From Desulfitobacterium dichloroeliminans LMG P-21439 (GTDB taxonomy: Bacteria > Bacillota > Desulfitobacteriia > Desulfitobacteriales > Desulfitobacteriaceae), in NCBI RefSeq assembly GCF_000243135.2, contig NC_019903.1, forward strand, positions 2,518,001 through 2,582,000: a stretch of DNA of 64,000 nt, written 5' to 3'. The notes below the pieces were generated by a model. The model was not told the origin of the DNA. It saw nothing but the letters and a program-made list of their open reading frames with translations, and ran no database searches. A program made the position numbers and the translations under genes. Below, piece by piece: positions 31,380-32,742 of this stretch (position 1 is the first letter of the stretch; every line of letters starts with the position of its first letter).

Positions 31380-31486
31380 AGCCTATCCCCCTTTCAAGTC
31401 GCATCATGAACTAGTATTTCCTGTAAAAGTCCAAATAAACCAAATTAAAAGCTTCAACCCATTAATTAGCAAATGGATCTCTATTG

Positions 31487-31495
31487 CATAGTATA
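31487..31495 (+). promoter_or_regulatory. Sigma-K-like -10 element
   Basis: CATAGTATA matches the CATAnnnTA form of late mother-cell (sigma-K) -10 boxes, about 50 nt before the Trp-rich micropeptide gene. The -35 region is not convincing, so this is a hint only. Confidence 0.35.
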
Positions 31496-31540: not shown

Positions 31541-31630
31541 ATGTGGGGTTGGTGGGGTTTCCCCTGGTGGGGCTTTGGATTTGGCTTCCCTTGGTTTGGG
31601 GTACGATATCGTCGCCGTCGGTGGTGGTAA
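31541..31630 (+). CDS. Trp/Gly/Arg-rich micropeptide, 29 aa
   Basis: ATG 31541 is preceded by an excellent AAAGGAGG ribosome binding site and the gene is followed by a strong terminator. The 29 residues include 8 Trp, 5 Phe/Tyr-type aromatics and Gly in the first two thirds (MWGWWGFPWWGFG), then a basic end with RRRRWW. The composition is that of a membrane-interface or spore-surface peptide, and also of Trp/Arg-rich antimicrobial peptides; neither is shown. It is divergent from a cluster of sporulation-type micropeptides. Longer frames overlapping it lack ribosome binding sites. Confidence 0.65.
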   Translation: MWGWWGFPWWGFGFGFPWFGVRYRRRRWW

Positions 31631-31686: not shown

Positions 31687-31720
31687 AAACCGTTGGAACG
31701 TTCCAACGGTTTTTACTTTT
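31687..31720 (+). terminator. Terminator of the Trp-rich micropeptide gene
   Basis: AAACCGTTGGAACGTTCCAACGGTTT is a perfect inverted repeat, followed by TTACTTTT, 56 nt after the stop codon. Confidence 0.85.
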
Positions 31721-31783: not shown

Positions 31784-31813
31784 AAAAAAAAGCCCTCTCA
31801 ATAGAGAAGGCCC
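31784..31813 (-). terminator. Terminator of the micropeptide cluster
   Basis: GGCCTTCTCTATTGAGAGGGCT forms a hairpin on the minus strand followed by a run of seven or more T, 13 nt after the last micropeptide stop. Confidence 0.8.
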
Positions 31814-31825
31814 CGTCGGAGAAAC

Positions 31826-31939
31826 TTAGTTGAAGATTACTCCCAAAGCTAGAAGAATCAGAATTGCAATTGCGATAATCCCTGCACCAATACCACTTCC
31901 AACATGACAACCACTGCCAAAACCACCATAACCGTACAT
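31826..31939 (-). CDS. YjcZ-like tiny membrane peptide, type A, 37 aa
   Basis: Begins MYGYGGFGSGCHVGSG, a Gly/Tyr-rich head with one Cys, followed by a single hydrophobic helix (IIAIAILILLALGVIF) to the C-terminus. It resembles the YjcZ family of sporulation-associated tiny transmembrane peptides of Bacillus. GGGGGTGG precedes the ATG. It is the last of four tandem genes and closely resembles the 50-aa member at 32148-32300. Confidence 0.75.
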   Translation of the reverse strand: MYGYGGFGSGCHVGSGIGAGIIAIAILILLALGVIFN

Positions 31940-31979
31940 GATGCCACCCCCAGACTATTTATTTTCTAGCAAGCTCAGC

Positions 31980-32063
31980 TTAGAATACTATTCCCATAGC
32001 GATGAGCAATAAGATGATTACAACAACGATAGCGATTCCGGCGCCCCAATTAGTTCCATGCAT
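31980..32063 (-). CDS. YjcZ-like tiny membrane peptide, type B, 27 aa
   Basis: 27 residues: a short polar head (MHGTNWGAG) and one helix ending LLLIAMGIVF. It has a perfect AAGGAGGG ribosome binding site. The C-terminal IAMGIVF is identical to that of the 33-aa member at 32331-32432, marking the pair as duplicates. Probably sporulation-associated by family; expression is unknown. Confidence 0.72.
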   Translation of the reverse strand: MHGTNWGAGIAIVVVIILLLIAMGIVF

Positions 32064-32147
32064 AGTATTACCCTCCTTAAAAATTTCGCCCTTGGCCTTA
32101 AGAGACACTCATTATCTATTAGAGGTGATCTGTTGAAGTGTTTTTAT

Positions 32148-32300
32148 TTAGCTGAAGATGACTCCTAAAGCGATAAGAATCAAGACTGCGATAGAGATAA
32201 TTCCGACCCCAACACCCCAGCCCATACCTTGACCACAGCATTGCCCAAAACCTGCACCTGCTCCAAAACCTGCTGTTCCTCCAAAACCTAAACCGTACAT
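32148..32300 (-). CDS. YjcZ-like tiny membrane peptide, type A', 50 aa
   Basis: Gly/Phe-rich head (MYGLGFGGTAGFGAGAGFG), a CC pair (GQCCGQG), then a helix ending VLILIALGVIFS. It is the longer homologue of the 37-aa peptide downstream, with an expanded GxGxGF repeat. AAGGAGGG precedes the ATG. It is second in the four-gene tandem. Confidence 0.75.
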   Translation of the reverse strand: MYGLGFGGTAGFGAGAGFGQCCGQGMGWGVGVGIISIAVLILIALGVIFS

Positions 32301-32330
32301 AAAGTACCCTCCTTATATTTTAAATTTCAA

Positions 32331-32432
32331 TTAGAATACGATACCCATTGCAATCAATAAGAGAACGATGACTACAACTACAGCGATACCTTGTAGATAG
32401 TTAGGTCCGCATCCACCTGCTCCGAATGCCAT
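32331..32432 (-). CDS. YjcZ-like tiny membrane peptide, type B', 33 aa
   Basis: MAFGAGGCGPNYLQG head, then a single helix (IAVVVVIVLLLIAMGIVF). AAAGGAGG lies 9 nt before the ATG. It is the first gene of the tandem and pairs with the 27-aa peptide by its identical C-terminus. Confidence 0.75.
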   Translation of the reverse strand: MAFGAGGCGPNYLQGIAVVVVIVLLLIAMGIVF

Positions 32433-32696
32433 ATTGTTTTCCTCCTTTCGATTGGTAATATCTGGTTATGCTACAAGATATGAGCAAAACGATAAAGTGT
32501 GAGATGTCCACAGGATGTATTGGTTATTTTTTCCTCCCCGCACAAAATAATTGAAGCGTAAAGTCCCCGCTTCGTCAGGACAGCATGGCTTTAGAACTTG
32601 TTTCCTTGAAGTGCATATCCAAAGAACAAGAAGTCGCTGGTTGCCCAATGCAGGAGTAATGCATGTAAGGAAATACACTTTTTGACAGCAAAAAAT
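32433..32696 (-). other. Leader region of the micropeptide cluster, no gene seen
   Basis: About 260 nt upstream of the four-gene cluster. The only frame (32466-32678) has no ribosome binding site and atypical composition. CATATCTT near 32481, with CACA about 15 nt further upstream, loosely resembles a sigma-K promoter. Nothing else could be assigned. Confidence 0.3.
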
Positions 32697-32742
32697 AAGT
32701 CTATCCCAAAATCGACACCAGTGTCGATTTTGGGATAGACTT
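32697..32742 (-). terminator. 46-bp perfect palindrome acting as terminator
   Basis: Two 22-bp arms (starting AAGTCTATCCCAAAATCG) around a CA dinucleotide, with TTATTTTTTG following on the minus strand. It ends the polysaccharide deacetylase gene. The arms are unusually long and perfect for an intrinsic terminator. Confidence 0.8.

Follow-up and report, generated by a model that had tools for sequence, protein, structure and literature searches.

The window that we analyzed, a 64,000-nucleotide stretch of the Desulfitobacterium dichloroeliminans LMG P-21439 genome, contains four consecutive genes for membrane micropeptides that belong to two families, designated here A and B, which are encoded as B-A pairs and which, by profile searches, are specific to the order Desulfitobacteriales. 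The predicted sigma-K-type promoters of these pairs, together with the absence of the peptides from exactly those genomes of the order that lack sigma-E/sigma-K and SpoIVA, indicate that A and B very probably act late in sporulation, as peptides of the mother cell. Small YjcZ-like sporulation proteins are abundant and, to our knowledge, have no known role. The entire order seems to use in place of YjcZ a two-family, fixed-pair version with an almost letter-invariant membrane segment, and this paired version yields testable predictions: two partners, one sigma factor, and one membrane. Our literature search found no paper describing B-A micropeptide pairs.

The quartet locus

The quartet occupies positions 32432 to 31826 of the minus strand and consists of open reading frames (ORFs) of 33, 50, 27, and 37 aa in reading order, that is, two B-A pairs. 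All four ORFs called by the initial annotation are present, as are the sequence features on which it paired them: the IAMGIVF tail of the 33- and 27-aa peptides and the ALGVIF tail and MYG.G head of the 50- and 37-aa peptides. The features of the locus are as follows.

32697..32742, minus strand: 20-pair palindromic terminator with a loop of 4 to 6 nt, lying between the quartet and the polysaccharide deacetylase gene upstream of it
32499..32500, minus strand: predicted -35 core AC of the quartet, sigma-K form, 16 nt upstream of CATA
32475..32482, minus strand: predicted -10 element CATATCTT of the quartet (CATANNNT, mother-cell type), its first base 50 nt before the B1 start
32331..32432, minus strand: B1 micropeptide, 33 aa, MAFGAGGCGPNYLQGIAVVVVIVLLLIAMGIVF; ORF with AAAGGAGG ribosome site
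32148..32300, minus strand: A1 micropeptide, 50 aa, Gly/Cys head and C-terminal membrane helix; ORF with AAGGAGG ribosome site
31980..32063, minus strand: B2 micropeptide, 27 aa, MHGTNWGAGIAIVVVIILLLIAMGIVF; ORF with AAGGAGG ribosome site
31826..31939, minus strand: A2 micropeptide, 37 aa; ORF with GGGGGTGG ribosome site
31789..31814, minus strand: intrinsic terminator 3' of A2, 11-pair stem and T run

Judged by its own predicted promoter and terminator, the quartet probably forms a single transcription unit. It is flanked on one side by genes for polysaccharide deacetylase, ilvH, ilvB, secDF, and yajC and on the other by genes for a 146-aa membrane protein, recJ, apt, and relA. The near-perfect ribosome sites previously claimed for every gene hold for three of the ORFs (AAGGAGG or AAAGGAGG), and the fourth site, GGGGGTGG, is good but short of near-perfect. 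The palindrome that terminates the deacetylase gene attracts spurious Rfam microRNA matches.

Two related families encoded as fixed pairs

The B family, comprising the 33- and 27-aa type, has the core GIA.VVVIILLLIA[ML]GIVF, and the A family, comprising the 50- and 37-aa type, has the core G[VA]GIIAIA[IV]LILIALGVIF. B1 and B2 match the B profile (E values of 4.8e-18 and 2.8e-16) and A1 and A2 the A profile (1.6e-13 and 6.7e-14), each of the four being a seed of the profile concerned. Comparison of the two profiles with each other scored 40.2, with no shuffle above 35.4; on this evidence, A and B are distinct but related families. Profile searches, by which we identified the paralogues in the window genome, recovered exactly six B and six A genes there, every copy in a B-A pair, at five places.

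The two-pair layout noted earlier for the quartet is borne out and proves far more general than the window shows: an A gene directly follows 98 of the 107 B genes that we collected (94 distinct clusters), with a median B-to-A gap of 33.5 nt. The longest array comprises four pairs in succession (L104), and the B copy number reaches about 20 in the genome of one relative. Some pairs of Dehalobacter-like genomes (family f3; L017, L086, and L094) stand in A-B order. One pair of the window genome, at 527107-527358 (L109, 5712-6059), looks decayed: its A gene lacks the GVIF tail and continues into an unrelated one, the pair lacks the promoter form described below, and a transposase-like ORF lies close by. 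Searches of a plasmid collection returned no match for a window peptide and none for a YjcZ-like query.

The initial annotation explained the quartet by duplication of a two-gene unit with expansion of the Gly-rich head, and a recent event of this kind is not supported. A tree built from concatenated pair cores, weak because the sequences are short, places pair 1 beside the first pairs of Desulfitobacterium relatives and pair 2 beside the second pairs of other genera. Since each pair type clusters with its counterparts in other genera, the two pairs are probably old subtypes rather than the product of a recent local duplication. Relatives, too, have an A1 that exceeds A2 in length, so that the head may have changed in either direction.

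Distribution and co-absence with sporulation genes

Homologues of the quartet (relatives of the 50-aa A1) occur in 38 of 41 Desulfitobacteriales genomes; the B profile matches 32 of these 38, and A-type matches cover the remaining six. The B profile, run against 299 genomes of the phylum, found its family in the window's order only; the three weak matches outside it are partial, and two of them lie in frames of 286 to 295 aa. The named loci belong to Desulfitobacteriaceae, Desulfosporosinus, and one Peptococcaceae metagenome-assembled genome.

Among the 41 genomes of the order, sigma-E/sigma-K (by a TIGR02846 search) and SpoIVA are absent from three, G015, G036, and G040, and the A and B peptides are absent from exactly these three, which yield no B gene at an E value of ≤0.1. 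Within the order, the peptides are thus confined to endospore formers. The probability of such a co-absence by chance is 9e-5 on the assumption that the genomes are independent. G015, however, is congeneric with G007, which has the peptides, and another genus holds both G036 and G040, so that the co-absence amounts to about two independent joint losses.

Predicted sigma-K-type promoters

Sigma-E and sigma-K share a common -10 element and differ in the -35 element, which is ATA for sigma-E and AC for sigma-K (PMC3789822; see also PMC517825). The shared element, CATANNNT, occurs upstream of 70 of 81 B-first clusters (shuffles, 19.5; standard deviation, 3.6), and the complete form AC-N15-17-CATANNNT occurs upstream of 40 (shuffles, 2.8; maximum, 7). 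Upstream regions of 171 ordinary ORFs at the same loci, taken as controls, contain CATANNNT in 24 cases and AC-N15-17-CATANNNT in 1. In two orthologues of the quartet (L110 and L119), CATATCTTGTA stands 51 nt before the start.

When the -10 element was required to lie 30 to 62 nt before the start codon, 66 upstream regions remained, and these fell into two classes. The long-leader class (n = 31), which includes the window, has AC-N15-17 in 23 members and AC or CA at such a spacing in 28; the short-leader class (n = 35) resembles CCATATTGTKSCA-N16-CATANNNTGTACTATCT and has CA-N14-16 in 29. The sigma-E form, ATA at -35, appeared once in the 66. Because sigma-E and sigma-K promoters differ in the -35 element, the promoter sequence points to sigma-K and suggests that the B-A pairs carry sigma-K-type promoters. 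Sigma-70 and forespore (sigma-F/G) promoter forms were not convincingly enriched. The upstream regions of sigK and spoIVA were uninformative as promoter controls, because both genes fall short of being pure sigma-K targets and the start codon was uncertain in some cases. The main unexplained exception is the Dehalobacter-like family, in which the promoter form is mostly missing (e.g., L017, L086, and L094) even though sigK is present.

CCATATTGTKSCA is conserved over the -35 region of short-leader pairs (e.g., L013, L107, and L115), and CATATTGT occurs in 22 of the 81 upstream regions (shuffles, 0.3). The CCATATTGTKSCA element is perhaps a site for an activator. The (N)CA -35 and the extra conserved element of the short-leader class could possibly reflect a further regulator or a different sigma factor.

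A nearly invariant predicted membrane helix and a variable head

The initial annotation had staked the genes on conservation of their reading frames in relatives, and on this point the finding survives, with pN far below pS. For genes picked by profile, pS was 0.73 and pN 0.12 over 130 B cores, and pS was 0.76 and pN 0.13 over 126 A cores, values that pool orthologues and paralogues at saturated synonymous sites and are therefore a coarse measure of strong constraint. Core positions are mostly fixed in these two sets of genes, where I, L, and V seldom replace one another at most sites; for this tabulation, profile-picked ORFs replaced a partly circular selection by core pattern. As judged by these comparisons, the membrane segments at the C terminus hardly vary and are under strong purifying selection.

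The apolar segment runs without interruption for 17 to 19 residues, and the chain terminates at F or, rarely, one residue later. AlphaFold modeled a helix at residues 13 to 29 of B1 (block pLDDT of 95), with a low-confidence head, and a helix at residues 29 to 49 of A1 (block pLDDT of 94), with a disordered, low-confidence head. Each peptide is thus predicted to consist of a flexible Gly/Cys/aromatic head and one C-terminal membrane helix that reaches the last residue. Head length is unconstrained, whole peptides in pairs measuring 26 to 43 aa for B and 29 to 68 aa for A. Among genes picked by core pattern, the heads are Gly rich, with Ala/Phe added in B and Tyr/Ala/Pro/Cys in A, and 77 of 99 B and 74 of 106 A peptides contain neither Lys nor Arg; with most peptides devoid of these residues, tryptic proteomics would hardly detect them. 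Across 98 pairs, the net charge of B is negative in 47 and positive in 1, and that of A is negative in 0 and positive in 28. Half of the heads in B, and most of those in A, have no net charge. One A-head module, H[FY]P[NH]ISPVGAPPH[IV]GP, recurs across genera (L046, L051, L055, L058, L067, L077, and L116); two examples of it found no match in Pfam, and it is possibly a coat-binding motif.

Relation to YjcZ and other readings of the peptides

A and B resemble the YjcZ, or tiny_TM_bacill, peptides (TIGR01732; PF09680, YjcZ_2) in their small size, their several copies per genome, their single C-terminal apolar membrane segment, and their Gly-rich head, which often begins M(Y)GYG and contains Cys, and yjcZ of B. 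subtilis is a member of the sigma-K regulon (PMC517825). They might accordingly be read as divergent YjcZ members whose pairing is an incidental tandem duplication, and YjcZ genes are indeed sometimes adjacent to each other (L140). In profile-profile alignment (hhalign), B scored 27.4 against YjcZ, above all 200 column shuffles (maximum, 26.0), and the B core aligned with the YjcZ core (FALIVVLFILLIIVG) colinearly and without gaps. The score of A against YjcZ, however, was reached by 100 of 200 shuffles, and the comparison with TIGR01732 that the initial annotation had proposed failed: neither this model nor PF09680 matched the four window peptides at an E value of up to 1 (10 within their own genome). 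YjcZ controls from G177, G230, and G301 did match TIGR01732, two of them also matching PF09680 at 45 to 47 bits; by these models, the window peptides are not YjcZ members. TIGR01732 had no match in the sampled genomes of the window's order; genuine YjcZ peptides are present elsewhere in the phylum. The YjcZ core, F[AV]LIVVLFILLIIVG, also differs from the distinct A and B cores, and A and B are found in the window's order only. Two distinct families held in a B-A arrangement at 98 of 107 B genes are not expected of random tandem copies. We therefore consider divergent YjcZ membership unlikely. Of the proposal in the initial annotation that these are YjcZ-type sporulation peptides, the sporulation part is upheld by the sigma-K-type promoters and the co-occurrence with sigK and spoIVA, and the filing under YjcZ stands as an analogy only: A and B probably function like YjcZ and may be remotely akin to it through B, without being members.

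Two further readings concern the nature of the peptides themselves. Cores of alternating I-A-I-A-I-L-I-L-I and of V/I-rich sequence, with beta-branched residues alternating with small ones or leucine in the A core, and the silk-like, coat-like Gly/Cys heads would also suit beta-sheet or amyloid-like fibers of the coat or exosporium, and the strict distinction of I from L that most core positions keep, although synonymous change is saturated, suggests tight packing. Yet both peptides are confidently modeled as helices, and an unbroken run of apolar residues of this length is the usual pattern of a membrane helix, which makes fibers improbable. Hydrophobic type I toxins (Ibs, Ldr, TxpA, and BsrG) are likewise short, apolar, single-helix peptides, and those of the Ibs/Ldr type come in tandem copies, as do the four consecutive genes of the window; tandem leaderless bacteriocins would fit the same description. 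We regard such a role as very improbable. The charged or aromatic tail that follows the membrane helix of type I toxins is missing from A and B, whose chains stop at the apolar segment or one residue past it, and A and B differ further in their Gly-rich heads, their sporulation-type promoters, and their co-occurrence with sporulation genes. Nor did searches reveal a credible antisense RNA candidate at the quartet, where no Rfam family reached its gathering score (the sole weak matches being the terminator palindrome) and no sigma-70 promoter signal rose above shuffles.

A proposed model for paired peptides of the spore envelope

The reading that we favor, and think somewhat better than even, is that of order-specific paired families expressed late in the mother cell under sigma-K, with A and B coassembling in a spore-enclosing membrane. 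Sigma-K would transcribe the B-A pairs late in sporulation, so that A and B would be made in step. Both helices are predicted to insert into a membrane, presumably the one facing the spore, whether the outer forespore membrane or the membrane/coat boundary, where A might pack with B, their helices fitting closely and their heads biased in opposite directions. The negative bias of B and the positive bias of A hint at coassembly. The variable Gly/Cys heads could then assemble into a shell or connect with layers of the coat, and the many near-redundant copies would raise both dose and head variety. A more specific version, in which A and B are obligate partners in a repeating, stereospecifically packed hetero-oligomeric layer or pore of that membrane, an endospore component found in this order only and with variable heads that tune coat attachment or permeability, is tentative.

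A third micropeptide convergent with the quartet

A further micropeptide gene, designated C, converges on the quartet, with the following features.

31487..31494, plus strand: predicted -10 element CATAGTAT of the C gene, with CA at 31470-31471 and a 15-nt spacer
31541..31630, plus strand: C micropeptide, 29 aa, aromatic/arginine, MWGWWGFPWWGFGFGFPWFGVRYRRRRWW; ORF with perfect AAAGGAGG ribosome site
31687..31712, plus strand: intrinsic terminator 3' of the C gene

Relatives of C occur in 8 of the 41 genomes of the order (E value of ≤0.01) and lie near counterparts of the quartet in several genera. Nearly all of them have CA or ACA followed by CATANNNT upstream, the window gene having CA-N15-CATAGTAT, and the C gene is predicted to have a promoter similar to that of the quartet, of sigma-K type. 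At one further locus (L059), a similar aromatic/arginine peptide is encoded directly 3' of a B-A pair on the same strand.
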